From Sphaerolaimus hirsutus (taxonomy: Eukaryota; Nematoda; Chromadorea; Monhysterida; Sphaerolaimidae): DNA of 64,000 nucleotides. The position numbers and the translations under genes were made by a program. Where the stretch lies: contig OZ038458.1 of NCBI GenBank assembly GCA_964036195.1, forward strand, positions 9,003,832 to 9,067,831, written 5' to 3'. Positions 1,330-63,500 of this stretch are shown piece after piece; within the stretch, counting starts at the first letter, position 1; every line of letters begins with the position of its first letter. The notes below the pieces were generated by a model. It ran no database searches, had not been told where the DNA came from, and worked only from the letters and a program-made list of their open reading frames with translations.

Positions 1330-4300
1330 ATGAACCACGGTCGCGGTGCGTGGGATACGGTCGCCGCCTCGGAAGGGGTGTTCTATTTATTGCCGCTGTG
1401 TGCCGGCACCCTCTCCCCGTTGCTGGCCTGCATGCACATCCTAAGACAGGCGCATGCCCCCTCCGCGGACTTTCCGGCCCGCCTCGTGGCCACGGTGAGC
1501 GCCATGGCAAAGGTCGAATGGCTCGATGTCGTTATGGGTAAGGCCAAGATCCCCCGCAGGTGCTGGCTTAGCGCACTGGCAGTGCACTACGGCATCCCGA
1601 CTGTGATGCTGTACTCTGAGAACAGCACGCCCCCGAATGCTTTCAGCATTTACGGGCATGGCACCCAAACCGCTTTGCATTGCCAGTGTGCCGTAGTCGT
1701 GGTGGTGGGTGATGATTGGTACCTGCACGACATCGAGTTTGGACAAGTTCGTTGCGTCTCGCCGCGCGGGCGCTGCACAGGCCTGGTCGAAACGCACATT
1801 CTCGATGAGGCTAACTTGCCTCAGGATACCCTCGAGCGCATTGCCGCCAACCACAGTTCGATCTCGCACTATAGCCGCGGTCAACCCCAGGGGGCCACTG
1901 TCGAGTGGACGGTGTGGACACTGGTGTGCGAGTTGAATAGAATTCATTACGGGTGGGTAGCCCCACCGGAGAATGCACTGTTGTCCACGCTGGCCACTAA
2001 GGCGTGCCCCCTGGAGAAGGCCCTGCGTGATTTGCAAGTGCAGGGAGCGTCCCCCGCCGAAATCCGAGCGCTGAATTACTTTCAAGCGCTGATCATGCAT
2101 GTCGGGCTGGTAGGACCGCGAATCGCGCGGCCGGAACAACCGGCGAACATTGGTGCAGCACCGCTCGGCTCGCCCTTGTGCAACGTTGCGGATGAGACGA
2201 GCCGACTGGCGGTGCTCCTGGTCACCGATTGGTGTCCGCGCGATTTGACGTCCCGCTCGATTGAGCGGAACATGCGCATTTTCCAACCCTATAGCGAGTG
2301 CCCGTTGCCCTCCGGGGTTCCGGCTAAGTCCACCCTCGATAGGATAATTTTTGGCCAACAGCAGGCATGGGACCTCCGCCAGCAATATTTTGGAATGCTA
2401 CTAAGAGCCCCCGCATGCGAGTCCGACGTTCCAGTTCGGTTTGGCGCCTCGGTGCCCTACCAGCTGTCCCGCGCACGGCCGACGCTCTCGTTTGAAGATG
2501 TGTGGAACATGCTGAGCGCCGTAAGGGACCAGGTTGCCCCTGCGGAATTGGATCAGCCCTCCCTGGCGGCCTGCCCCGTACCGGCAAGGTTTGACGTGAT
2601 CCACAACACGGATCAGTGGGTTCAGCGCCTGCGCACCTATGGGGACGCAAATGCGTCGCCCCAGGAGGAAATCCAGTCACGAGAGGCTCGTGACCCTAAC
2701 CCCGTTCGCACTTGGCTTAATAGCTACTTCGACGAGAACGCCACCGTGGAGGACGTTGAGGGGTTCCGGGACGCACGATACTCTTCTGCGCCCAACCGCC
2801 TCGTTGACCCTTTCTTCGACCCGCACACGCGCCCCGTCCAGCGATTAGAGTCGGGTGTGTGTACCTGGGATTTCGGTTTGGTCGAACCCCGCGCTCTGCC
2901 GGGCCCGGATGACCCCCGCCGGCACATCCTCGGCCCTAATGAGTCTGTGGACGAAGGGATGTCCTCGGCCGCCGCTAGTGAAGCGGGACCGTTAGAAATT
3001 GCGCTCCCAATGGAGATTGCTGCCGAGGGGGGGGCGTCCGATGCGGGTGTCTCGGCCGACCACGTCCCGGTCGACTGGCTCCAAGAAGTGGAGGCAGCGA
3101 ACCGGGCCGAGGGCGCCTATAGACTCCGCATCGTACCCCTCCAACCGGTATGCAACCAACTCGCGAAAGAAGTGTCCGAACACGAAATCGATGAGACGAT
3201 TTGTGTTACGGCGAGGACATTGCTTAGCCACGACTACGCAAGAGGGACGGAGAGATTGCAGGCGCTGGGTTTCTCCGGCACGGCGGTGTGGTCCTCTTTC
3301 GGTTTGGTCGAGCCCCTCGAGCCGGAGGCGTACCATGTCCCTGAGGTAGGGGAGGGCCCCTTTGACAACCTCGGCCCGATTCCGGTACGCGACGAGTATG
3401 TTCCTCCAGCCGCCTTTGCTCAACCCGGCGGGGAGATCCAAGTCGCCTCGATTAGACTACCTGAGAACAGTTTTCCCACTTGCGAACAGGCGCTGCGTTG
3501 GTTCCGCGACCACCAGGCGAAATATATCACTTTTGACACGGACTTGGTGCTGGGTATCGAGAATAGCATCCCCTACTTTTACTACAATAGGCCCGTTGAG
3601 GGTCGTGCGATTCACGTTTGGCGCCGGGAGGCTTGGTATCCAATGGCGCAGCGTTGTGAGGACCTGACACCGTCACATGTTGACGCATTGCTAGGGTTGT
3701 TCCAGCAGTACATCGCAGCGACGGTCCGGGGAGTAGATGTCCGCCCATTCTTCAACGTAGAAGAAGAGGAATTGCAACTGGTGAACAATGTGGGCGTCCC
3801 AGTCGCTGGGCCCCTGGACGACCAGCCGGACCACTGGCTGAATAAGGCCTTTGGGGAGGCTGAGCTCGCCCGGCTGCAGGCTATCGCGAGGACACGCGGG
3901 CACTACGACCCAGGTTGGTCCCCGCGGCACCCGTTGAGACGACCCATGAGCGAGTGGCTCCGGCCGGAAGGTACTTATACACCCGGCTGGGAGCGGGTAC
4001 ACGTGCAGAACGTGCCCCTTCCGCTCCGCCCTCTCTATACTGAGATGCTGATGAGTCACAGTTTGGATGAATTCAACTACGTTCCGACGGTGGGGCGCAG
4101 TTTGATTCACTTTCTCGACGAGTTTGAGGACGGCGGACCGGACAAGAATTTTGAAGTGCCGGTCCCGCCGAGTGTTTTCCCCGATCCAGCGCAGGTACGT
4201 CCCACCTTGCCAATAGGTCATAGGTACTTCAGCACTGGGGCAAATTCGTCGCTGACTAGGTGCATCCTCAACTGGTTGACTTCATGGCGCAACCAATGGG

Positions 4301-5526
4301 AGCTCCTGCGGGTGCTCGTACTTTCGAACGAAGAATGGGCGGAGTATTGCGTACGCTTCCCTGGTGCACCGGCAAGCTGGACTAGGTGGCAGGACCAGTT
4401 CCGCCACGAGTCCCTGGACCAGCTGCGGTTGAGGCTACGCGAGACTCAGGACGTGTTCACAAGATTCTTGTTGCGCGCCAAAATTTTGTGCGCCACCAGT
4501 AAGGGATCCTCCGACCTTGTTCTGCAGTCCACTCTGCAGACGGCGCTAGGCCGTTGGCTGGACTTTCGGTTGAATATCCTCCGCCTGCTCGCATTGGACG
4601 ATAGTCGCGGTCTGGTAAGGCCGAGAGTGCACGCAGGCAAGGGTATAATATCGATTGATCGCCACCACGTGTATCTATTCTTCTCCGGAGACAGTCCGCT
4701 GGGGAACTTTTTTCGCGCCCAAATTCCGTTGATGGGTGATTTGCATGTACCGTCATCTGAGCACTTGTATCAAGTTTTGCAGCTGATTTTTAGCGGGGAT
4801 CACGACTTAATTGTACCCCTCCTCCAACACTCCGACCCTGCTGACTGCAAGCGTCAGATGACGGCCTGGCGTAGGGCGGGTACGATCGCCAGGTGGAGAG
4901 TAAGACAGCGGGAGTGGCACGAATGCGGCCTCGCCGTCGCAACCATGCACGCTGTCTTGCGACTCAAATTGGCGACCTGCCCCGCCTATCGAGACGCCCT
5001 GGCCAATAACCCGGATACGGTTTTTATTGAGGCAAGCCCGTATGACCCGTTTTGGGGTATTAGGCAAGGTATGACCAGCCCTGTTCTCTGGACGAACGTA
5101 GAATCGTGGGGTGCCAACTGGTTAGGCCGGTTGCATATGGCAATGGCGGGACAATTGGCCCGTGGGGCTGCCCAACGGCCGTGGCCCGTCCTGAGTCTGA
5201 ACGAATTGGTGGTGTCAATCTTGGCAAAGTGTAAGGGTGCTGTTCAGCGCCCAGCGCCAGTCCGGCCGCTGCCCACTGCCCTGCTGAATGAAATTGCTCG
5301 GTGTGATGCGGTTGGGCGCTACGCCCCTGGCGCCGCCCCGGTGACCATTTTGACCGTTCCTTTTGCTGAAGGCCAAGACCCACGTATATTGACTAAACAG
5401 CAAGTGGCGTTGGGCCAGCGCCCCATTCCGCAGCTCGCAATAATCGAGCGTGAACCCAATGTGCCGCGAGGCGCAAACAAGGCAACTCGCAGGATGCATC
5501 GCCTGCGCCAGGCTCGTACCAAGTAG
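1330..5526 (+). CDS. ORF2: about 1,400-residue protein with C-terminal NADAR domain
   Basis: The frame is open from 1261; the first ATG is at 1330, 14 nt after the ORF1 stop, and TAG is at 5524-5526. Counting codons from 1309, a NADAR (YbiA/RibX-like) domain spans roughly residues 1118-1285. Visible hallmarks are SPLGNFF (about 1129), SSEHLYQ (about 1149), IEASPYDPFWGIR (about 1240) and NWLGRLHMA (about 1270). NADAR proteins are N-glycosidase-type enzymes acting on riboflavin intermediates or removing ADP-ribose from nucleic-acid bases; the substrate here is unknown. The first 1,100 residues are unrecognised. An FGLVEP motif occurs twice, at nt 2872 and 3299. The gene is intron-free and GC-rich. 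A conserved hairpin starts 8 nt after the stop. NADAR assignment is firm; the protein's role is unknown. Confidence 0.85.
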   Translation: MNHGRGAWDTVAASEGVFYLLPLCAGTLSPLLACMHILRQAHAPSADFPARLVATVSAMAKVEWLDVVMGKAKIPRRCWLSALAVHYGIPTVMLYSENSTPPNAFSIYGHGTQTALHCQCAVVVVVGDDWYLHDIEFGQVRCVSPRGRCTGLVETHILDEANLPQDTLERIAANHSSISHYSRGQPQGATVEWTVWTLVCELNRIHYGWVAPPENALLSTLATKACPLEKALRDLQVQGASPAEIRALNYFQALIMHVGLVGPRIARPEQPANIGAAPLGSPLCNVADETSRLAVLLVTDWCPRDLTSRSIERNMRIFQPYSECPLPSGVPAKSTLDRIIFGQQQAWDLRQQYFGMLLRAPACESDVPVRFGASVPYQLSRARPTLSFEDVWNMLSAVRDQVAPAELDQPSLAACPVPARFDVIHNTDQWVQRLRTYGDANASPQEEIQSREARDPNPVRTWLNSYFDENATVEDVEGFRDARYSSAPNRLVDPFFDPHTRPVQRLESGVCTWDFGLVEPRALPGPDDPRRHILGPNESVDEGMSSAAASEAGPLEIALPMEIAAEGGASDAGVSADHVPVDWLQEVEAANRAEGAYRLRIVPLQPVCNQLAKEVSEHEIDETICVTARTLLSHDYARGTERLQALGFSGTAVWSSFGLVEPLEPEAYHVPEVGEGPFDNLGPIPVRDEYVPPAAFAQPGGEIQVASIRLPENSFPTCEQALRWFRDHQAKYITFDTDLVLGIENSIPYFYYNRPVEGRAIHVWRREAWYPMAQRCEDLTPSHVDALLGLFQQYIAATVRGVDVRPFFNVEEEELQLVNNVGVPVAGPLDDQPDHWLNKAFGEAELARLQAIARTRGHYDPGWSPRHPLRRPMSEWLRPEGTYTPGWERVHVQNVPLPLRPLYTEMLMSHSLDEFNYVPTVGRSLIHFLDEFEDGGPDKNFEVPVPPSVFPDPAQVRPTLPIGHRYFSTGANSSLTRCILNWLTSWRNQWELLRVLVLSNEEWAEYCVRFPGAPASWTRWQDQFRHESLDQLRLRLRETQDVFTRFLLRAKILCATSKGSSDLVLQSTLQTALGRWLDFRLNILRLLALDDSRGLVRPRVHAGKGIISIDRHHVYLFFSGDSPLGNFFRAQIPLMGDLHVPSSEHLYQVLQLIFSGDHDLIVPLLQHSDPADCKRQMTAWRRAGTIARWRVRQREWHECGLAVATMHAVLRLKLATCPAYRDALANNPDTVFIEASPYDPFWGIRQGMTSPVLWTNVESWGANWLGRLHMAMAGQLARGAAQRPWPVLSLNELVVSILAKCKGAVQRPAPVRPLPTALLNEIARCDAVGRYAPGAAPVTILTVPFAEGQDPRILTKQQVALGQRPIPQLAIIEREPNVPRGANKATRRMHRLRQARTK

Positions 5527-5533
5527 CACCTAC

Positions 5534-5634
5534 CAGACATAGAGGAGCGCGGTGCATGGGCGTTGGGACTAAAGTGCCAAGCCTACGTCCTTGGGATTGT
5601 CCCGGCGCAAATACACCCAACTCCTCGATGTCTG
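5534..5634 (+). other. Conserved hairpin, copy 1 (after ORF2 stop)
   Basis: The outer stem 5534-5547 pairs with 5621-5634 (13 of 14). The inner stem 5560-5569 pairs fully with 5599-5608, with G-U pairs. The core is TAAAGTG, stem CCAAG/CTTGG and apical loop CCTACGTC (5582-5589), followed by GATT. It lies 8 nt beyond the ORF2 stop codon. Confidence 0.85.
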
Positions 5635-5697
5635 ATCGATTGTATTTTTGGCAACTGTGTTGATGGCAAATGTTATACTTTTATATGAGCTTATTAA

Positions 5698-5746
5698 GCC
5701 GGAGGATTAAAGTCCCAAGCCTACGTCCCTGGGATTATCCAATGGC
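5698..5746 (+). other. Conserved hairpin, copy 2
   Basis: The core is TAAAGTC, CCCAAG, loop CCTACGTC, CCTGGG, ATT. The outer arms GCC...GGAT and ATCC...GGC pair around a 3x3 internal loop. In this subtype the apical stem has one A-C mismatch. Confidence 0.75.
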
Positions 5747-5790
5747 GATGCTAGAATTATTGAAATTTAATTATGCAGTTATCCTTGTCA

Positions 5791-6262
5791 TGGGTTCAGC
5801 GCCTGCGCACCTATGGGGACGCAAATGCGTCGCCCCAGGAGGAAATCCAGTCACGAGAGGCTCGTGACCCTAACCCCGTTCGCACTTGGCTTAATAGCTA
5901 CTTCGACGAGAACGCCACCGTGGAGGACGTTGAGGGGTTCCGGGACGCACGATACTCTTCTGCGCCCAACCGCCTCGTTGACCCTTTCTTCGACCCGCAC
6001 ACGCGCCCCGTCCAGCGATTAGAGTCGGGTGTGTGTACCTGGGATTTCGGTTTGGTCGAACCCCGCGCTCTGCCGGGCCCGGATGACCCCCGCCGGCACA
6101 TCCTCGGCCCTAATGAGTCTGTGGACGAAGGGATGTCCTCGGCCGCCGCTAGTGAAGCGGGACCGTTAGAAATTGCGCTCCCAATGGAGATTGCTGCCGA
6201 GGGGGGGGCGTCCGATGCGGGTGTCTCGGCCGACCACGTCCCGGTCGACTGGCTCCAAGAAG
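5791..6262 (+). pseudogene. Truncated duplicate of the middle of ORF2
   Basis: This is a copy of ORF2 nt 2617-3088, lacking both the N-terminal part and the NADAR domain. The frame runs on both sides into the flanking 3' sequence (open from 5773 to 6399), giving a 208-codon chimeric frame. It has no evident promoter of its own. Because it matches the parent exactly, it could equally be non-functional debris or a very young gene. Confidence 0.85.
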
Positions 6263-6269
6263 CACCTAC

Positions 6270-6370
6270 CAGACATAGAGGAGCGCGGTGCATGGGCGTT
6301 GGGACTAAAGTGCCAAGCCTACGTCCTTGGGATTGTCCCGGCGCAAATACACCCAACTCCTCGATGTCTG
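6270..6370 (+). other. Conserved hairpin, copy 3 (duplicate of copy 1)
   Basis: Exact duplicate of copy 1, created by the 736-bp tandem duplication. Confidence 0.85.
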
Positions 6371-6433
6371 ATCGATTGTATTTTTGGCAACTGTGTTGAT
6401 GGCAAATGTTATACTTTTATATGAGCTTATTAA

Positions 6434-6482
6434 GCCGGAGGATTAAAGTCCCAAGCCTACGTCCCTGGGATTATCCAATGGC
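6434..6482 (+). other. Conserved hairpin, copy 4 (duplicate of copy 2)
   Basis: Exact duplicate of copy 2 at offset 736. Confidence 0.75.
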
Positions 6483-6538
6483 GATGCTAGAATTATTGAA
6501 ATTTAATTATGCAGTTATCCTTGTCATGACGGCGCAAT

Positions 6539-6595
6539 GCGGTGTTGAGGTCTAAAGTGCCAGACCTACGTCTCTGGGATTGCCCCCAGCACTGC
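6539..6595 (+). other. Conserved hairpin, copy 5
   Basis: The apical stem is CCAGA/TCTGG instead of CCAAG/CTTGG: both strands changed and pairing is kept, with the same CCTACGTC loop. Outer arms 6539-6552 and 6582-6595 pair with several G-U wobbles. Confidence 0.82.
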
Positions 6596-6702
6596 GTGGC
6601 GACGTACTGACGAGGTACTGTTATAATGCCTCACACAGTTGTGCAATGTTTCAAAATGCTACTTATCTTTTGAAATAAAAGGGCTCTTTTCTGCGGTGCA
6701 CG

Positions 6703-6783
6703 GGCACTATGATGACTGACTGATGAATTAAAGTCCCAAGCCTACGTCCCTGGGATTATTCTGACGCCAGCCGCATAGTCGCC
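6703..6783 (+). other. Conserved hairpin, copy 6
   Basis: The core is TAAAGTC, CCCAAG, loop CCTACGTC, CCTGGG, flanked by AAT/ATT. The outer arms GGCACTATG (6703-6711) and CATAGTCGCC (6774-6783) pair. An AATAAA lies upstream at 6674-6679. Confidence 0.72.
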
Positions 6784-6823
6784 AGAATTTCACACCCTGA
6801 TTGACAGTTTTATCGTGTAATGT

Positions 6824-6883
6824 GCCGTCGGTGGCTAAAGTGCCAAGCCTACGTCCCTGGGACTGCCACTGGTGACACACGGC
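6824..6883 (+). other. Conserved hairpin, copy 7
   Basis: Core loop CCTACGTC; inner arms GTGGC (6831-6835) and GCCAC (6865-6869); outer arms GCCGT (6824-6828) and ACGGC (6879-6883). Confidence 0.78.
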
Positions 6884-7016
6884 ATGGTACTGCTGGTCTT
6901 TTCAATTCGAGAATCACTCGTTTTCGCCCTTGAATTCCTCCGGCTCTTGCAATTCAACCAAACACTTCGAAACCAGCAACTGTAAGCGTCTGTTTTTCGG
7001 ATACAGTGCCACTTCG

Positions 7017-7083
7017 CAATGCGGTCTGGTGCCTAAAATGCCAAGCCTACGCCCTTGGGATTGTCACCAGCCGTGTAGCGTTG
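7017..7083 (+). other. Conserved hairpin, copy 8
   Basis: Apical stem CCAAG/CTTGG with loop variant CCTACGCC. Arms TGGTG/CACCA and CAATGC/GCGTTG, the latter with one U-G pair. Confidence 0.8.
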
Positions 7084-7270
7084 TGGTACGTAAATGAGTT
7101 CAAATAACCTCAGGAAACAAACTAATTGGTCTCAAGATTTAATAGTCACGCCGCCTGCTTCGTTTGCGATTTTTATTCTTCATTTTTTTGCGCAGTTTTC
7201 GTCATTCCCCTCGCATTTTGGGACTTTTTCCCTTATTCTGCCACTTTTGAGTTGCCACAGTGTCACTTCG

Positions 7271-7337
7271 CAACGCGGTCTGGTGCCTAAAATGCCAAGC
7301 CTACGCCCTTGGGATTGTCACCAGCCGTGTAGCGTTG
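7271..7337 (+). other. Conserved hairpin, copy 9
   Basis: A diverged tandem copy of copy 8. The outer arm is CAACGC/GCGTTG, where copy 8 has CAATGC, so the change turns U-G into C-G. The core is unchanged. Confidence 0.8.
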
Positions 7338-7551
7338 TGGTGCGTAAAATGGGTACAAATATTTTTAGGGAATAAAATGTAATGGTCTCAGGATTAATAG
7401 TTATGCCGTCCGCCGCATTTGCGATTTTATATCCTTCATTTTTGCGCATTTTTCTGCCATTTTTCTCGCACTTTGGGACTTTTTCCCTATTCTTGTCATT
7501 TTGAGCTGCCATTGTTATTTTTGTGCGATGAGTAGTAATTTATAAGGGCGC

Positions 7552-7620
7552 GGTGTGTGTGCGTTGGAACCTAAAGCGCCAAGCCTACGTCCTTGGGGTT
7601 GGTATCGGCACACACACACC
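7552..7620 (+). other. Conserved hairpin, copy 10
   Basis: GGTGTGTGTG pairs with CACACACACC on the outside; GGAACC faces GGTATC inside. Core TAAAGCG, CCAAG, CCTACGTC, CTTGG. Confidence 0.82.
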
Positions 7621-7694
7621 TAACTCTCTCTTTTAAATGAAAGGAAATTTTCCATTTTTGATTGCAACCTTGTATACATTTGTGGTATCACGTC

Positions 7695-7766
7695 TCTGAG
7701 GGCCAGGTTGAAGGGTTAAAGTGCCAAGCCTACGTCCCTGGGACTACCCCATGGCCTGGACCCAGA
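7695..7766 (+). other. Conserved hairpin, copy 11
   Basis: Arms TCTGAGGGCCAGG and CCTGGACCCAGA pair with a small interruption; inner GGGT faces ACCC; core loop CCTACGTC. Confidence 0.8.
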
Positions 7767-8309
7767 GGCAAGGTAAAAATTTGTGTTTCTTCACGCCGCG
7801 TAATTTTGAGTTGTTTTAAATAGTTATACCTCGACCATACTGAGCATCGCTGTAAATAATTATTCTTAGCTTTCTACGCCGCTTTTGTATTTTACCTGTA
7901 TTTAACAAAACCGCGTGGTCACATTGAAGAGGACCCCCGGCTTTACATGTGTATTTAGAAATATCAGGACGGCCCCCGGTCATTGTGTAATTATTTGGGA
8001 CTGGACTCATGGAATTTTGTGCACACAGTTTTTCTTTAAAACTCCAGTGACCTTGAACACTTTCTTTTAAACAGCCACCTGGATAAAGACTTTTTGCTTC
8101 CCACATTTAAAGTAATCACCAATAATTTTTGCTGGTTATGGCTGGGAACAAATTTTTGCAGCCACACAATGGCCATATTAGTGGAAAACAGTTTAGTTCA
8201 ATTTCACTTCAATTTTCATGTTTTTCCAAAATTTTCTCATGTTTTTCTTGAAACTTTAACGGAATATTTTTGCACAGGAAACACTTTTCTGCATCTATCT
8301 TTCTTGACC

Positions 8310-8874
8310 ATGGATCAAAATCTAAATGCTGGCCATACTCATTGCTTGACAATGTCTGTCATGACTGGTTCACCAAATATAAATTTCCATGAATTTATGT
8401 ACCAAGGAGACAACGAAATTGTCATGCGTGTGACCGCTGGAGAAATGCGGCTCACCCAGCCACTTCAACGTGTGCTTGACTGGCAAGACCCCCGTCGCGA
8501 AAAGTGAGAATTTTCATGGGTTCAGTGTAAAATTGTATGCAATGACCAAAATTCCTTTCAGTTTGAGTGAATCTGTCCTTCTGTGGGGGAACACGGCTTT
8601 TGGAAATGACCAGCCACTGTTGGCAGTAACTGGCCATGCGGCACCGATCCAACAATGTCAAATTCATGGCACTGGCATCCCAATGCAAGTACCGGCCCAC
8701 TGCCTACCGAGTAGGGAGCCGTCGATTTCACCAACTGATTTCACTTATGACCCACATCTTTCTGTTGGCCCTCCCGTGCATGTGACCACGCGAGTTATTA
8801 ATCCAACTAGTATTCCTATCACTATTACCCTGGAACAAACTGGCAATTTTGTCGATATTAAGTTACAATTTTGA
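8310..8874 (+). CDS. 168-residue protein, two exons, unrecognised
   Basis: Exons 8310-8503 and 8562-8874 join in phase across a 58-nt GT-AG intron (donor AA/GTGAGA, acceptor CCTTTCAG), giving 168 codons plus stop. The start ATG sits in an excellent context, GACCATGG, which is why I prefer it over an in-frame ATG at 8094. The protein has no recognised domain. Its C-terminal half alternates polar and hydrophobic residues (for example HVTTRVINPTSIPITITLEQ), suggesting a beta-rich fold such as a small capsid-like or lectin-like protein; that is a guess. A conserved hairpin follows about 165 bp after the stop. The gene lies between hairpin copies 11 and 12 and is probably part of the same element. 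Confidence 0.6.
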
Positions 8875-9037
8875 ACGCCAATGGCTACAATTCTGCGCTG
8901 AGTTAGTATTTCATGTTTTAGGCCAAATGTAGTAATTCCAACAACAATATTTACCAAATTTATTTTCGTACCCACTATCATTCCCTTTTACTATGGTACA
9001 GGTGAACCACGACGCGTATTGTTTTAGTTTCTAGTGT

Positions 9038-9104
9038 AAAATTGGGTGCAGCGGTCTAAAGTGCCAAGCCTACGTCCCTGGGACTGACCAAAGCACCCAT
9101 TTTT
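9038..9104 (+). other. Conserved hairpin, copy 12 (after the 168-residue gene)
   Basis: Arms GGGTGC/GCACCC and GGTC/GACC enclose the core with loop CCTACGTC. It lies about 165 bp downstream of the stop codon of the gene at 8310-8874, an arrangement like that of copy 1 and ORF2. Confidence 0.82.
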
Positions 9105-9809
9105 GTATGTTTTGATATCATTTTTCTGAAATTTTCTTCTAGTAAGCGCAGTCAACCAGTTGCACGCGGCGATTTTTGGTAATTGTGTGGAGGTAAACCG
9201 CTTGAGCCACGTGTTTTGTGAAGTTAGCCGCGAATTTGATTAGTAGCTGCGTTTGTGCCACCAAGAAAAATGTCATTGTTTGTGCTTGCGATTAGACTGA
9301 GAATTGTTAGCTGAATGTTTTCTACCGGGATCCCTTTTGTGAATTGTTGTATTTCGTGCTGTTGTGAATATTTTTAGCCTTCGTAGTTTGGTTTCATTTA
9401 GTCACGTTTAGCTGATCTTTTCTGTTAAGTGGCATTCCACTTGTCTTACGGTCTCACTTACGGTTCTCATGATTCTTGCCTTAAAATTTCTCTTGCCATA
9501 ATTTTAGATTCTGTTTCGACGCTTTATTAGGGTGCTTCCAGTGCACATGTTTGCGTATTTTCCAGGGTTCCACTTGCGACCTCGTAGTAGTTGTAATTCA
9601 CCTCAAACATTTACCTGCAATACACCGCAACGCTTTAAATACATGAAAATATCAATATCAGTCGACAGTTCCTTGAAAACAGTAGATAACACACTCTTCG
9701 CCGCTGCTGCGCTGACTTACCCGCGCTTTTAGAAAAGGGGGGAGGAAGTGTGATGCCTGTTCGCGCTGGGCCAGCGCTCAAAAGGTCGGTATAGTATGTA
9801 ATGCGAGAA

Positions 9810-9868
9810 CTGACGGCGGGCCACCGAAGTGCCAGACCTACGTCTCTGGGACGGTGACCCAGCGTCAA
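9810..9868 (+). other. Conserved hairpin, copy 13
   Basis: A 16-nt arm at 9810-9825 pairs with 9853-9868, using G-U pairs. Apical stem CCAGA/TCTGG, loop CCTACGTC; the 5' internal segment is GAAGTG rather than TAAAGTG. Confidence 0.85.
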
Positions 9869-10015
9869 TTAACGCTTACTGAATCCTAATTATGGCGCTT
9901 TAGCCGCCGGGGACGCCATATTGACCCCTTTCGGGCCAAGTGACGTCATTACGACGTCGCCCTATATGAAACCTAACTTATAGGGAACTTAGGGCGCAGT
10001 CGACGCCGCCTACGG

Positions 10016-10080
10016 TAATTGGCGCCAAGACGCTAAAGTGCCAGATTTACGCCTCTGGGATTGTGTTTTGGCGCTAATTA
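10016..10080 (+). other. Conserved hairpin, copy 14
   Basis: 18-nt arms at 10016-10033 and 10063-10080 pair except for A-C or G-U type changes. Apical stem CCAGA/TCTGG, loop variant TTTACGCC. Confidence 0.85.
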
Positions 10081-10655
10081 CATGTACAATATGGCGTCGA
10101 CAGTGTTATGTCGCTAATTTCAATTAGCGACAGTGCCTAATTGGTCGTATTTACTTGTGAAAAGCCCGAGTGACGTCATTTGACATCCCCGGGAATGAAA
10201 CCTAAGTTTTGTGAAACTTACGGCGCTTTTACTAAAAAGAAAAGCAGCGCCGAGCGAAAACTGTGTTCCCCGAGTGTGGCGGCCAAACGAGCGCCGGCGA
10301 ACGACTTCGACGGCCGCGACAGCGCCGCGTCGCCGCCATTCGACACCCGCCGACCGCCGGAACCCGGGAGAGGGGGTTTTTGGTGTTTTGGGTGATTTCT
10401 GAGATTTTTGTAAAAGTGTTGAGTCGGCCACTTTTGGCCGAGTGCCAACTTTCGGGAAATGACACCAAGTGTATTTTTGAGGGGGTTTAAGCGCTGTCGC
10501 CGTGTTTTGGCGACAGTTTATCACTCAAACTTGTAAATCTACCCCCTACCCAGTCCCCGCGAGCGTCGACAGCGTGGGCCGCCGGAAACGTCCGCGGAGC
10601 GACAGACTTCGGCCGCTCAGAAAGTTTTGGTGGGAGTGGCCACCGGAAGGGAGGG

Positions 10656-10699
10656 CCCCGATAGCTCCAGAAGCCTACGTCCTTCGGAGTAGAGACGGG
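10656..10699 (+). other. Conserved hairpin, copy 15 (degenerate)
   Basis: Loop CCTACGTC (10674-10681) on a stem GAAG/CTTC plus CTCC/GGAG with one bulged A. A short CCCG/CGGG arm lies outside. The TAAAGTG segment is not present. Confidence 0.6.
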
Positions 10700-11521
10700 T
10701 CAACCCTTCTGGAGGGATATGTGCCTAGGTTAAAATTAGTGAAGGAAATTGGAAGAATGCCAAAAAGGCAGTTTTTGTGTGTAGTTTGGCACATATCCCG
10801 TAGCCATTGCTGCCACAGGGAGGAGTTTGTGATTTTGTAGGTTGTAGGAGTAGGTTTAGGTTGTAGGTGCGCGGTAGGTGCCGCGGCTTGTGAATTATTG
10901 CGTATGTATTTGTGTTTATTTGCACCTAACCCCCTTAGTTGTGATAATTGCATGTGTTTGTGATTGTATTTTTACGTTCGCATTTATTTCTGTGTTTCGC
11001 ACGTGTTTCTATGTTTCGCACTTGGTTCTGTGTTTTGCACTTTTGCACCTTGTGTTTAGCTTCACGTTGGCCGATTGGTACGCTGGTTTTGGACGAGCTC
11101 ACGTTTGAGCAAATTACGGTTGTTTTTGTGTTTTTGGTCCTTTTGCAGTTGTTTGCCGTTTTCGAGTAGCTGTGGATTTACTTGGCATGTTTCCAATGGT
11201 ATCACGTTTAGTTTTGGAGAGTTTCGCTCAGTTTAGGCACTTTTAAGCTGTTAGTTTGTGCGTTTACGTTTGGTAGGTTACTGTAGGTATTGTACTTTCT
11301 AGTTTGGCACAGTTCCAAGTTTGGTTTCATTAGCTGGCTGAGCGCCAGAGGAAAGGTGTTCCTGAATGTCAAGTCACCATCCCCTTGTTCCATTAAAAAG
11401 TAACCCTTGTGGTACATGGCTTGGTTCAGCTGAAGTCACTTATTTTCGGTACACTTTCGAATGTACTTTCGTGATTGGTTGGCTCCGCCCAGCTGCAAAC
11501 CGGTTTTGGGCACTTCAAACC

Positions 11522-11558
11522 TATAAAAGAGAGCCCCAATCTTGTGTTTGTCATCAGT
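11522..11558 (+). promoter_or_regulatory. Candidate core promoter: TATA box plus TCAGT initiator
   Basis: TATAAAAG at 11522-11529 is followed by TCAGT at 11554-11558, about 34 bp from the first T to the A. This is the layout of an RNA polymerase II core promoter with an arthropod-style initiator. The downstream sequence starts with AT-rich leader-like DNA, and the next ATG-led long frame is at 12228. Confidence 0.5.
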
Positions 11559-12227
11559 CTATTCAATTCAATTCTAATTACTAAGTCAGTGATTTACCAG
11601 CTGAAATGAGCCTACCCTTGGTTATTCATTCTCTGCTAACTCTGGCATAGGCCTTCTCTTCCCTCTGCACGGTGACATTTAGGTTCACAGGGGCAGGAGT
11701 GGCCACACGGGGCTGCCGGTATAGTTAAGATAGGGTGTTGTATGGGGAGAACCCACCATCTGTGATGCTTACTGTACGTCTGGACCTCTGTGGACTTGTT
11801 TTAGGCGTAGTATAAGCTGAAGTAGGCTGTACACCTATTGACTCGCTCTAGGCTTTCGTAAGGGCCCAAACAGTTGTGCTACGTCGTTGTAGATTACTTT
11901 TGATAGTGGTGCTGTGCCAAGCTAGGATTTAAGTACCTGGTCTTGTGTGGTCTCTTACCAGTGTACCGTACTGCTATCCTCACCTGTCTGGTTTAGCTTT
12001 CATGACCCTGAGTGTTATTTAGTCATTTTTGTATTAATGTTTGATTTGGAAAGTGGAAAGGTAAATTGGAAATACTCAAATACTTTGGAAACTCTATTTT
12101 TGCAAACGTGATTCGAGAAACCCAATTAGTATAATTCAAGCTTACTCTGGTGCAACTAATTCTCTACTTAATCTATTGGCTCATTCCAGCTAGTGGATCT
12201 AATTAATTCTATTCTAATTGGTGAATC

Positions 12228-13295
12228 ATGATGGACGTCGTTTTTGTTTGCTTGCATTCAAATAAGGTTGAATTGTCGGTTTTTGAAGTGTGGGCGAGTC
12301 TTGTTTCTGTTTCTGGAAGTGCGCCAAGTTCTGAAGGTTTCTGGGAGGTTGATGATTTGGAAATGGGCCCTGTTTTTGATAGTTTTGAACCCGTGTCGGA
12401 AATGTTTCAAATACAACGAAGGGCCACGTATGCGGAAAAGGTTCAGGGCGCTGGTGATTTTGTTGTTGATTCTGTTTTGCCCAATGGCGAAGTGATTTGC
12501 GATGCTTCTCAGCAGTGGTTGTTTGATCACTTGATCATGGAGCCAGCTTTTATTGAGCCCGGAATTTGTGGTGTTTTTGAGAAAACTGCTGAAAGGCTGA
12601 AGAAAGTTGTGCAGCCTAGAAACCTTTGGTATTTGGTGGGTAAGAGAGGGAAATTACAGCCGCACGTTATCCGCCGCAAGCTTTTGCAATTTGCGCGACC
12701 GGACTTTGTTAGCTGTGGCAACCAAGTAGACCAAAAAGTTCCGAAGCCTACGTCCTTCGGAATAGCTAGGTCGAAAGGCACCAAGCTGGTGAAGTTTGGC
12801 AGACAGGGTTCCCGCGCACGCGCCAAGCGTAGGGCTTGTAGGGCAATTGTTGATCGTCCAGTGGACATTATGCCGCTTGTTGAACTGTCGGAATTGTGCG
12901 ATTATTTGGTTGGCGTGTTGCCATCGTTCGTCGTCCCACGGGTGCGAAGGGTAACTAAGTCCCCTGTTAGGTGCTGTACATTTGGTGTAATTAGGCAGGA
13001 TGGGCTGCATGAGCGCACCGTTGAAAGTTCTGACGGAATTGGACACTGTCCAAGGTGTTGCTATTTGGCCCACAATGATAAGGTTGTAGCACCTGGGGGT
13101 CCACAGTATTATATAGTGACGGAATGGCGCCATGGCGCTGGCGCCATTAGTAGCCGCCACGCCACTTCGCCATTGGCGTTGGCGTCAGCGCCATGGAATG
13201 CTGTATATATATGTAAATATACATACAAAACAGCAAAAAACACAACATTGAGTGTATTTATAACGATTTGTGGCCATATGGAGCAAATCCGATGA
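12228..13295 (+). CDS. 355-codon reading frame, unrecognised, 3' end overwritten by a repeat
   Basis: ATGATG at 12228 opens a frame ending at TGA near 13295. The first roughly 295 codons look like protein (acidic N-terminal third, then a very basic stretch around codons 182-212 that could bind nucleic acid or act as a nuclear localisation signal). From about 13113 the DNA is a copy of a repeat also found near 37735 and 41930, so the last 60 codons are repeat-derived. Hairpin copy 16 is inside the frame at 12739-12762. The candidate promoter lies 670 bp upstream. No family recognised; it may be a truncated gene. Confidence 0.5.
   Translation: MMDVVFVCLHSNKVELSVFEVWASLVSVSGSAPSSEGFWEVDDLEMGPVFDSFEPVSEMFQIQRRATYAEKVQGAGDFVVDSVLPNGEVICDASQQWLFDHLIMEPAFIEPGICGVFEKTAERLKKVVQPRNLWYLVGKRGKLQPHVIRRKLLQFARPDFVSCGNQVDQKVPKPTSFGIARSKGTKLVKFGRQGSRARAKRRACRAIVDRPVDIMPLVELSELCDYLVGVLPSFVVPRVRRVTKSPVRCCTFGVIRQDGLHERTVESSDGIGHCPRCCYLAHNDKVVAPGGPQYYIVTEWRHGAGAISSRHATSPLALASAPWNAVYICKYTYKTAKNTTLSVFITICGHMEQIR
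12729..12772 (+). other. Conserved hairpin, copy 16 (inside a reading frame)
   Basis: An 8-bp perfect stem TTCCGAAG/CTTCGGAA (12739-12746, 12755-12762) carries loop CCTACGTC; GACC/GGTC closes the outside. It lies within the 355-codon frame at 12228 and its sequence would be translated. Confidence 0.7.
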
Positions 13296-13445
13296 TTATA
13301 CCTTATGTCTGGTGAAGAATGCGCGCTTGCGCGCAAAATTTTTTACGCTGACGTTGAAAAAGTCGCGTTTTCCGGTCACTTTTTGGTTTCGCCCCGGGAG
13401 GGGGGGGGGGCTGCAGCCCCCCCGCCCCCCCCCCTGGATACGGCC
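13113..13445. repeat. CAGGGACGTA(G/T)CCAGG-family repeat, left end missing
   Basis: Starts with AGTGACGGAATGGCGCC, has a G-run/CTGCAG/C-run hairpin, and ends with CCTGGATACGGCCCTG. The same body occurs at 37735, 41816, 43013 and 57283. Confidence 0.75.
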
Positions 13446-60515: not shown

Positions 60516-63500
60516 ATGTCGCTGTTCCAACTGCGCGAGTGCTGGTCGTCGGGCGCTGTCGGGGGGCACGGCGGCGATGGGCAGAGTGAGGGTGAGCGCC
60601 TGGACCCGTGCGGACCCGGCTGCGCCGCTGTGGGCAAACTGTTGCCGCCGTCGGAGGCTGATGATCGGGAGCAGGTGTGTGTTGTTGGGTGGACTCTCAG
60701 GTTTAGTGACTAAAGACGGGTGTGTTTGTAGGCGGCCCGCACGCTAGTTGACACATTTGTGTCAACTCTGATTTTGTCGCAAAGCGATCTCCAAATGCAC
60801 ATGCGGCAATTTTGAAAGATAAATAAATGGTACGGCAAGCGCATCGGAAGCTGAAATCCGAGTTTACACGCATACGTTTACTAGTGTGTAGGCCGCCATA
60901 AGGGCATGCGCTGTGTGTTTGTCATGAGTTGTCGAAGCAGTGCTTCAATTTCATAATAGGCGATCGCAGCATCCGGTGTTTGCTATTTTGCAGGGCATTT
61001 TCCATGACTTTTGACACTTTGCATGACATTTGACATTTTACAGGGCTTTTTACATTGTCTGGGAGTGCCCCCAGTCCAATAATCTACCAACACATCTACC
61101 TCCTTACTTGACTACGGAATGAAACAGTAAAAATTTCATGGCTGTTCAGGTGGTGCTCGCCGGTCTGGACGGCACGCTGTACATTTACGACCCGGGCCAA
61201 ACGCTGAGCGACCAGAACAACTTGGACGCCGATGAGAATAATGGCATTTCTTCGATCGACGCCAGCTATAGACCCGATCATTTGCTCCTGGAACAGCACA
61301 TGGGGGCGCCTGTGTTGCAGGTTCTTGTTGCTCAATGCTTCCTTCCATAGGCGACCCACACACTAGTTGACACTTGTCTGTCAACTGGTCTGTGTCAACT
61401 CAGATATCGGCTTCACTTGTCGCAGAGCGATCTTCCAATACACTTGCCGTGATATGTATACCTACTTTTCTTTCAACATTGCCGCATGTGCATTATTTGC
61501 AGATCGCTATGCGACACGTGAAGCCGAAGTCTGAGTTGACACAAACCAGTTGACACACATGCATCAACTAGAATGTGGGTGGCCAATGTGTAGCAGATCA
61601 GTGCATGGTTTCAGGTGTGCGTTGGGCGATTTACAACTGCGCAAGATCGGCAGTCGGTGGCCGTGCTGCAGCCTCGGCGGCTTGCCGTGTTTGCCCTTTC
61701 TTGTGAGTGCTTTGTACTTGTAAATGTGTCTTGAATGTCAACCTGTAAATGTCTTGAATTGACAACGAATCGGGCTACCGGCAAACAATGTCTTCGATGG
61801 ATGTATCAAATCTCTTCAAAGTAAAAATTTTAGTAGCAGCAAACCACCTCGAATTGTAGGCACGCGCGCTGCCGGCGCGCCGGCCGCCCAGAGCGCCGAA
61901 TATCAACTGCACCAAGCTTACGAACATCGACTACCCAGAGCCGCCTACAACATGGCTATGGGGCCATTTGGCGGCGCCACTGGTACGCATGAATAGAACA
62001 CTATCAAAGCTTGAAAGAATCAACACTGTTCACTAAACCGGCCGCGCAGACCGAGACCACCTATGCATCCAGTCGCTGGACGGGCAGCTGTCCGTGTTCG
62101 AACGGGAGACGCACACGTTCTCCAGGTTCGTGCCCGGCGCGCTGCTGCCCGGCCCCGTCGCCTACGTGGGCGGGAGCGACGCGTTCGTGATCGGCACCGC
62201 CGCCGGCTTCATCGAGGCGTACGGGTACCAGACGTTGGCCTCTGCTAGTGAGGATAATCAGCAGGTTGGTGCATTTTTGGACAGTTATCTGATTGCTCAC
62301 ACATTGATCAGAGGACTTCACCAAAATTGCCGCTGTCTGAAGCCACACACACTATGCCAGTGCCGCACCGTTAAAAATATGTAAAATCAGACAAATTTGA
62401 CAAATGCCATGTGACGCCTCACAAACGGTGTTTAGCGTCAGGACGCTACACCGTTTGTGAGGCGTCACATTTAAAAAATCTTGTAGGCATTTTCAATGAC
62501 ATTCACAAATGTAACCATCTGACACTTTACATGTCCACTTACTACGTGCGGGCGTGGCTCCTACACCCCATTGCACTTTCACTTCCACTCAACTCAACTT
62601 CTGCCACTCAACTTCCCCCCACACAGACATCGCCTCTGACACCCGAAGACCCCACCCTGGTGTCGAGCACGAGCAGCAGCGGCAAGCGGGTGACCACCGA
62701 CTGGACGTTCGAGCTGGGCATGCCTTCCCTCGCCATCGCAGTGGTGGAAATGTCGCCCGCGCAGCCATCCATCGTAGTGCTGGCTGAGAGGGCGCTCTTC
62801 TGTCTTACTGAGGGGGGTACTCTGAGGTTCGCAAAGAGGCTCGATTATAGGCCCATGGCTATGTTGGCCTATTCAGCTAGTTGGTTGGGTTGTCGAAGTT
62901 TTTTTTGTGTTATGTATGATACTGCTAAGGCGATATATTTAGTCACTGTAAAATTTCGCAGCCAGCGATGGTTTCATCCAGTACATGGTGGCTAGCGAGA
63001 GCGGCACCTTGTTGCTGTACGCCGACACCACGCTGCGGTGGACTGTGCGCCTGCCCTTTGCACCGATCCACTTGCTCAGACTGACCTTTGGGTGTGTGAT
63101 GTTGATTGGCAGTTTTTTTGCCCTTTGTGTTTCAATTGAATATTTTTAAAAGAACGTGGTAATACAAATGTTCGCTATATCCACAATTTTTGGATGTAGG
63201 TAATGTCAGTTAAATTTCAGTCATTGGCAATCCTAACGCCACATGCATTTGCACCACTTTCGCAGCACATAGTAACTGCTTCTTCATAGATATGCACAGA
63301 AGCCATTCACAGGTCCCTGTACCGCGGTCTTCTAGCCGCAGTGGCGCCATCGGGCACGCTCACCATCGGCTACCTCGGCACCGAGCCGGCGCTCTACGCC
63401 CTGCCGCACACCGACACCAGACACATCGACTACGACGCCCGGCTGAAGGAGCTCAGACAGCTGCAGCACGCCATCAGAGCCAATTCGAATCAACACGGTG

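Follow-up and report, generated by a model that had tools for sequence, protein, structure and literature searches.

We have analysed a 64-kb window of the genome of the nematode Sphaerolaimus hirsutus (64,000 nucleotides of contig OZ038458.1), to which all coordinates refer unless they are given for L010 or L011, two stretches upstream of the window that belong to the same element. The hairpins described here belong to a young Ty3/gypsy long terminal repeat (LTR) retrotransposon of about 30 kb, and they share one conserved tip on variable stems. They are a selected RNA structure and not a passive repeat. A first-pass annotation, made from the sequence alone, had claimed at least 16 dispersed hairpins with a constant loop and three slight variants of it. 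All 16 were found at the places it gave, all on the + strand, with the exact loop CCTACGTC in 13 of the 16 and CCTACGCC at 7046 and 7300 among the three that differ. They are listed below by the position at which the loop starts, with scores from a covariance model (R1) that was built from 16 of these hairpins, so that their own matches follow from its construction.

5557-5611, + strand: hairpin, loop 5582 (67.8 bits; 37 spanning pairs; the span covers the core and 13-nt arms, and the stem runs about 20 nt further on each side)
5695-5749, + strand: hairpin, loop 5720, with a weak outer stem (61.6 bits; 15 spanning pairs)
6293-6347, + strand: hairpin, loop 6318, duplicate of 5582 (67.8 bits)
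6431-6485, + strand: hairpin, loop 6456, duplicate of 5720 (61.6 bits)
6540-6594, + strand: hairpin, loop 6565, inner stem CCAGA/TCTGG, which is CCAAG/CTTGG in element copy L016 (67.9 bits)
6716-6770, + strand: hairpin, loop 6741 (60 bits)
6823-6877, + strand: hairpin, loop 6848 (66.5 bits)
7021-7075, + strand: hairpin, loop 7046 (62.4 bits)
7275-7329, + strand: hairpin, loop 7300, near-duplicate of 7046, missing in 6 of 13 aligned element copies (62.4 bits)
7559-7613, + strand: hairpin, loop 7584, with U-A changed to C-G in the AGU/AYU helix (65.1 bits)
7704-7758, + strand: hairpin, loop 7729 (66.9 bits)
9044-9098, + strand: hairpin, loop 9069 (70.7 bits)
9812-9866, + strand: hairpin, loop 9837, in U3 of the 3' LTR (60.5 bits)
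10021-10075, + strand: hairpin, loop 10046 (TTTACGCC), in U3 (61 bits; 41 spanning pairs)
10665-10689, + strand: variant hairpin (predicted fold), loop 10674, stem CTCC-A-GAAG/CTTCGGAG, in U3 (14.5 bits)
12727-12774, + strand: variant hairpin, loop 12747, stem TTCCGAAG/CTTCGGAA, within a frame starting in the LTR (19.7 bits)

The count of 16 includes local duplicates. Because 5582/6318 and 5720/6456 form one local duplication (268 bp, exact) and 7046/7300 sit in a repeat of 92 nt (97% identical), the number of separate hairpins in the window is 13. The hairpins at 10674 and 12747 have the loop and, both of them, a GAAG/CTTC stem, but match R1 weakly. The loop 8-mer alone, with at most one mismatch, is little above chance in the window (41 occurrences against 28.7 expected; 2 of 100 shuffles reach 41), whereas loop, stems and context combined in R1 are far above it. 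At E <= 1, R1 gave 25 matches in the 83 kb of the window, L010 and L011, every one on the sense (+) strand of the element; 21 of them score 46.7-70.7 bits, and the remainder of the window holds no such match. The set thus extends upstream of the window, with five further internal hairpins (L010 5795 and 5978; L011 1177, 1384 and 7158), four of them within coding frames, and with copies in the 5' LTR.

The LTRs, each about 3.3 kb, pair window 9791-13114 with L010 1897-5219 at 99.85% identity over 3324 aligned bases, and a 5-base target-site duplication, ATAGT, lies outside both element ends. Considering the near-identical LTRs and the same ATAGT at both outer ends, the element is about 30 kb long and young. 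Its parts within the window are as follows.

12-1316, + strand: frame before the NADAR gene and in a different reading frame, continuing a 460-aa open frame at L011 8121-9500
1309-5526, + strand: 3' part of the NADAR gene (PF08719, 4.6e-13), interrupted in this copy; many others have it as a single open frame of 2274-2293 aa
8310-8874, + strand: small accessory gene made of two frames, which a short GT-AG intron may separate; other element copies conserve it
9797-13112, + strand: 3' LTR, followed by ATAGT (from the LTR alignment, ends read from the sequence)
11522-11528, + strand: putative TATA box of the LTR (sequence match)
12228-13295, + strand: start of the gag frame inside the LTR, here running into host DNA; at L010 4333, this start leads into a frame of 1005 aa

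The Pol protein (P0007) matches the Pfam families zf-CCHC (251-267), RVT_1 (1043-1204), RNase H (1267-1396) and rve (1700-1794). The order reverse transcriptase (RT), RNase H, integrase, with a zinc knuckle upstream, and LTRs with a short duplication are those of Ty3/gypsy elements. A second knuckle, CX2CX4HX4C, is readable in the Gag-Pol translation, and we take it to be a CCHC motif. The gene after pol ends in a NADAR domain; its frame gave no homologue at E <= 0.001 among 7983 scored candidates, and the second part of the accessory gene at 8310-8874 gave no Pfam match. Relatives of Pol are distant, with 31-46% identity among the 120 matches listed of 2650. The frames are shorter in the window copy (gag-pol 2371 aa, NADAR 1421 aa), and gag-pol is open over 3734-3790 aa in 36 of 60 copies.

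Along this element, the hairpins lie in U3 (9837, 10046 and 10674), in the frame that starts in the LTR (12747, equivalent to L010 4852), in gag (L010 5795 and 5978), in the interval from the zinc knuckles to RT (L011 1177 and 1384) and in the interval from pol to the next frame (L011 7158). They are dense in the 3' noncoding region (5582-9069), and R1 matched neither the part from RT to integrase nor the NADAR frame. Given the TATA box at 11522, the three U3 hairpins would fall at the 3' end of the transcript. Counted from the positions, a transcript of the window copy would carry about 21 hairpins, or 19 without the local duplication.

The genome, 348 Mb in 762 contigs, was searched for further copies. 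A piece of the NADAR gene gave 61 matches, 60 of them spanning nearly the whole query, with 27 at 84-100% and 33 at 76-79% identity. Of the 150 matches scored for a piece of RT (from 1624 first-look candidates), 60 were at 98-100% and the remaining 90 at 37-43%. From these matches, the genome holds about 60 copies of the element. RT is uniform across the 60 copies while the NADAR piece splits into two groups (27 against 33), as if the 3' genes had been swapped with a more distant lineage, or as if they evolved fast. All 30 NADAR loci that were fetched, among them the window's own copy (L027), carry hairpins: 207 matches in total, with seven at 27 loci, five at two and eight at one. Genome-wide, there are 530 exact occurrences of the core CCAAGCCTACGTCCYTGG and none in reversed controls. 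This amounts to 8.8 for each copy of the family, where a copy that lacks the local duplication has 9, and the 100 of the 530 places that were listed are all on contig C1 and fall within element copies or next to them. A genome-wide pattern with the third stem pair changed gave 1 match against 18 in reversed controls, stems differing elsewhere not having been searched.

For the analysis of the RNA architecture, 16 distinct hairpins were aligned without gaps (alignment A1), leaving out the duplicates 6318, 6456 and 7300, the variants 10674 and 12747 and the second LTR copies. The whole hairpin is about 90-100 nt long. It consists of a variable outer stem of about 30 bp, a UAA bulge, a three-pair AGU/AYU helix, a G.G mismatch that is replaced by C-G in some hairpins, a five-pair inner stem and the loop CCUACGUC. 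The inner stem occurs as CCAAG/CYUGG, CCAGA/UCUGG and CCAGG/CCUGG. The pairing stems CCAAG/CTTGG and CCAGA/TCTGG that had been annotated are seen, but many copies (7 of 16 in A1) have an A.C mismatch there. RNAalifold predicted the same hairpin from A1, with two-sided changes in 13 of 18 pairs. A plain UNCG tetraloop was considered for the loop, but 149 of 150 loops have A at the second position, so that the constraint goes beyond that fold.

Pairing in A1 is preserved through sequence change. The first-pass annotation had called for a check of covariation, and over the 16 distinct hairpins the covariation score is 0.500 against 0.215 after shuffling (0/500), falling to 0.097-0.185 when the partners are slid out of register. 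Pairing is found in 80.1% of cells against 62.3% in shuffles, and two-sided changes in 69 cells against 33.3 (0/500 each). Counted by pairs, the excess is smaller, with 16 pairs showing two-sided change against 13.7 (10/500) and 45 further pair types against 38.5 (7/500). The three invariant inner pairs (CC-A/U-GG) carry no covariation information. In these shuffles, and in the permutations below, the hairpins are taken as independent; a few arms are related (e.g. L010 5795 and 5978).

The refuting case named at the outset, a recent spread of one sequence whose arms match through inheritance, is not what was seen. Between hairpins the outer arms are 32% and 31% identical and the core 84%, and the arms of one hairpin pair with each other at -18.1 kcal/mol against -8.9 kcal/mol for swapped arms (0 of 20,000 permutations reach this). 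The excess holds at 0-13, 13-28 and 16-34 nt from the core (0/20,000 each) and at 28-45 nt (2/20,000), and it is gone at 34-60 nt (9060/20,000) and 45-70 nt (17,773/20,000). Accordingly, the outer stem is about 30 bp long, and the second stem of 5-18 bp given earlier was too short. The outer stems are weak in the hairpins at 5720 and 6741. Isolated G.U pairs in the arms outnumber A.C pairs by 22 to 11 (one-sided p=0.04), as expected under selection on the sense RNA.

R1 at E <= 0.01 gave 164 matches in 18 sources, and the best 150 of these were aligned (A2). Their loops are CCTACGTC in 114, CCTACGCC in 24 and others in 12; the bulge is TAA in 128, CAA in 14, CGA in 5 and TGA in 3; the mismatch position is G.G in 123 and C-G in 27. 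A2 has 72 distinct rows, which give a covariation score of 0.511 against 0.210 in shuffles (0/500).

Selection on the hairpins is also visible between element copies. The 3' region was compared across 13 copies, the window copy and 12 others that are 89-95% identical to it, at 11 of 12 sites (7300 has letters in fewer than 8 copies, and copy L020 has none at the first five sites). Mean diversity rises from 0.022 in the 29-nt cores through 0.060 in the near arms and 0.088 further out to 0.114 in flanking DNA, so that the cores lie 5-fold below the flanks, and none of 5000 random block sets was as low. Within the core, the G.G positions are invariant (22 positions), with 0.0075 for the inner stem and 0.036 for the loop. 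In copy L016, the stem of hairpin 6565 is CCAAG/CTTGG instead of CCAGA/TCTGG with both pairs kept, a change that could also be gene conversion from a sister hairpin. At third codon positions around the two gag-pol hairpins, diversity is 0.015 in the cores, 0.072 in the arms and 0.100 in the rest of the 751-base stretch (12 copies; 0/5000 blocks). Third-codon variation is therefore 6.6-fold lower in these two cores than outside the hairpins, and protein coding does not explain it. A passive DNA repeat was rejected, considering that unrelated arms still pair and that the core is far less variable than its flanks. The earlier view of a selected RNA structure rather than a DNA repeat is thus supported, but its carrier, a giant Ty3/gypsy retrotransposon with hairpins in coding frames and LTRs, had been missed.

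Relatives of the hairpin were sought in several collections. None of 4227 Rfam models, a search that had been proposed with the first description, matched the window at its gathering score, so a known Rfam family was rejected, and no self-cleaving ribozyme of a known class was matched by its covariance model; in 5400-10900, Rfam gave just two weak microRNA (miRNA) matches at E 1.5. A lone viral contig match (L001, IMG/VR; R1 23.3 bits, E 6e-6) lies within an internally repeated phage-like coding stretch, and a lone match among bacterial and archaeal genomes (L056, a bacterium; 21.7 bits, E 2e-5) covers the inner 27 model positions only. Both are taken as chance, despite these E-values from a small search. 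Two additional motif patterns had no match in IMG/VR viral contigs, and a phage origin was likewise rejected for want of a match. As far as seen in this genome, IMG/VR, the bacterial and archaeal genomes and Rfam, the motif appears to belong to one retrotransposon family. Searches of the open-access literature for LTR retrotransposons or Ty3/Metaviridae in combination with hairpins or packaging yielded nothing of this kind among the papers listed, and we know of no repeated RNA address-tag system in LTR retrotransposons.

On the function of the hairpins, we tentatively favour a multivalent protein-binding site, most likely for the element's own Gag, which would gather or package the element RNA. 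A conserved tip, a free stalk, many copies, one strand and a presence even in coding stretches together suggest a protein that reads the tip and needs many sites; the high copy number and the hairpins in coding stretches in particular point to multivalency. In this case, the variable outer stem of about 30 bp would serve as a stalk, and the tip (UAA bulge, AGU/AYU, G.G or C-G, CCA..UGG and the loop CCUACGUC) would be the part read by the protein. The roughly 19-21 hairpins of a transcript would then allow multivalent binding, and Gag, with its two CCHC zinc knuckles, would most plausibly be the most economical reader. We infer that a protein reads the tip and, with less certainty, that this protein is Gag and the outcome packaging. 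Background from the literature, taken here and below from the available portions of the cited papers, is consistent with such a role: in yeast Ty3, the nucleocapsid (NC) domain and its zinc finger are required for packaging (PMC4974528); in MS2-type models, assembly is driven by dispersed hairpins that share an apical loop and a 5' bulge (PMC6281560); and in Rous sarcoma virus (RSV), NC contacts loop G residues (PMC5035970). More speculatively still, the hairpins could form a repeated RNA address tag, in which about twenty near-identical protein-binding tips on interchangeable stalks would act as a dispersed packaging or gathering code. The sites are spread over the 3' region, U3 and tolerant coding stretches.

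Some results on the structure are weak or count against it, and other points count against Gag as the reader. Over the 72 rows of A2, pair types are not above shuffles (49 against 50.7) and pairs with two-sided change number 16 against 15.2 (96/500). Among orthologous variants, the preservation of pairs is modest, with 63 of 128 one-sided variants keeping the pair against 50.1 expected and 9 of 17 two-sided ones keeping it. When all codon positions are counted, coding hairpins have arms that are barely more conserved than the rest (0.050 against 0.055), and the A.C pair that is frequent in the inner stem would read as G.U on the opposite strand. As for Gag, the 3' region and U3, where the majority of the hairpins are found, would also be part of spliced element RNAs, so that genomic RNA would not be singled out. 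A host protein, or one of the element's uncharacterised proteins, is an equally possible partner. Retroviral packaging signals are usually 5' (e.g. PMC7291142, as far as its available text goes), and in RSV a change of the UGCG loop left Gag specificity unimpaired, according to the available part of PMC5035970.

The main rival to the Gag reading, which we consider doubtful, is nuclear export resembling that by a constitutive transport element (CTE) or a Rev response element (RRE). The tips would recruit a host factor (CTE/NXF1-like) or an element adaptor (RRE/Rev-like), so that unspliced RNA leaves the nucleus, and the copies would add up. Most hairpins lie in the 3' noncoding region, as does the CTE of Mason-Pfizer monkey virus, and the apparently spliced accessory gene implies that unspliced RNA needs export. 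To our knowledge, however, export elements need one or few copies and not twenty, the hairpins in gag and in the interval from the zinc knuckles to RT would be unnecessary, and Rfam gave no match, a result obtained without direct sequence comparison to a CTE. For this rival also speaks that CTEs bind NXF1/NXT1 directly and that four copies outperform one (available portion of PMC4829213).

It is unlikely that the hairpins regulate translation or stability, with an RNA-binding protein of the host acting through them on all element mRNAs from the 3' region. The 3' location and the shape would suit it, as the iron-responsive element and the trans-activation response element are likewise laid out as a bulge, a short upper stem and a conserved loop. 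One would expect a regulator from the host to have targets among host RNAs too, but no second use was seen in the genome, given the roughly nine exact cores for each of 60 copies and the 100 of 100 listed places within element copies.

Loop-loop kissing, in which ACGU palindromes join hairpins of the same RNA or of different RNAs and so bring about dimerisation or compaction, seems improbable. ACGU is self-complementary and the exact CCTACGTC predominates among the best 150 loops, and dimers of yeast Ty3 were proposed to form through short palindromes (PMC11381356, in the part available). However, such a contact would have 4 bp only, CCTACGCC and several other loops break the palindrome, and the conserved bulge and G.G would be left unexplained.

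A processing substrate, either a self-cleaving ribozyme or a pri-miRNA-like stem, is very improbable. Ribozymes typically combine a conserved core with variable stems, the stem length here is close to that of a pri-miRNA, and the better of the weak miRNA matches was mir-350. That match reached 21 bits against 60 needed, no Rfam ribozyme matched, and the arms are more variable (0.060-0.088) than the core and the loop, the reverse of what is expected of a miRNA; about 20 cuts would also destroy the RNA genome. The least probable reading is a feature of the DNA, be it a set of sites to which a DNA-binding protein attaches, like those of the gypsy insulator, or a passive repeat that duplication has spread, since the conserved core sequence, the local duplicates and the inner-stem A.C are set against unrelated arms that pair to about 30 nt, a single orientation, the G.U excess and the strong constraint on cores including third codon positions, and a DNA-level site was rejected on the arm pairing and the G.U excess.

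Some further features of the locus were observed. The window copy has an extra 736 bp that is absent from copy L015. Here 472 bp of the NADAR frame (2617-3088) recur without mismatch at 5791-6262, flanked on each side by the same 268 bp of the 3' region (5525-5792 and 6261-6528, also identical), with a 2-nt overlap at both joins. The arrangement resembles the outcome of template switching during reverse transcription, and it accounts for a false frame at 5773-6399. The gag frame (window 12228-13112, L010 4333-5219) starts in the LTR and reads across the LTR end and the region of the primer-binding site. A polypurine stretch at 9731-9748 lies about 50 bp before the start of the 3' LTR and does not adjoin it. 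Host DNA just 3' of the element holds a palindromic GCGCCATGGCGCC-type stretch (13150-13210) and a G-run/C-run palindrome (13398-13435), and 62411-62995 is a host gene exon matching the N-terminal part of PTHB1 (BBS9; 1.1e-16).

The motif is a new RNA element; its general kind, a cis-acting hairpin of a retroelement, is known, but its repeated form is unusual. Sixteen distinct hairpins with unrelated stems and one tip, together with about 60 genomic copies, offer a rare natural experiment in RNA-protein recognition, and R1 permits the motif to be sought in other eukaryotic genomes. If Gag reads the tips, dispersed packaging signals would be a feature of LTR retrotransposons as well as of small RNA viruses, which would help to account for the gathering of an RNA of about 30 kb. 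If a host export factor reads them, they would form an unusually repetitive CTE-like element.

Among known systems, the dispersed packaging signals of single-stranded RNA viruses (MS2, enteroviruses and the hepatitis B virus pregenome; available part of PMC6281560) likewise consist of many hairpins per genome with a shared loop-and-bulge motif, also in coding sequence, and the present element resembles them in that many hairpins dispersed along it have one recognition motif in common. Unlike in those viruses, the tip here is much stricter (84% mean core identity), the hairpins lie mostly in noncoding 3' RNA, the carrier is an LTR retrotransposon and the contact with a protein is presumed. The retroviral psi element, as partly seen for RSV with its UGCG loop (PMC5035970), has in common a conserved loop with G and a zinc-knuckle Gag, but psi is a compact element of the 5' leader, whereas the present hairpins come in about 20 copies, mostly 3'. 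The CTE and RRE (from what is available of PMC4829213) are likewise structured cis elements in retroelement RNA, and CTE copies are additive, but the tip here is another one, no Rfam model is common to them and the copies are many more. The Sirevirus motifs also occur in many conserved copies in noncoding regions of LTR retrotransposons; however, they are short DNA palindromes with a CGG-CCG core in LTRs, and variable covarying stems are not described in the accessible part of their account (PMC2829016). Finally, the planarian gypsy element Burro is likewise giant, exceeding 30 kb with extra domains (PMC6431247), and the Ectocarpus gypsy element shares the NADAR domain (PMC12477816); the available portions of both accounts mention no such hairpins, which here accompany a giant element of the same superfamily with a NADAR gene of its own.

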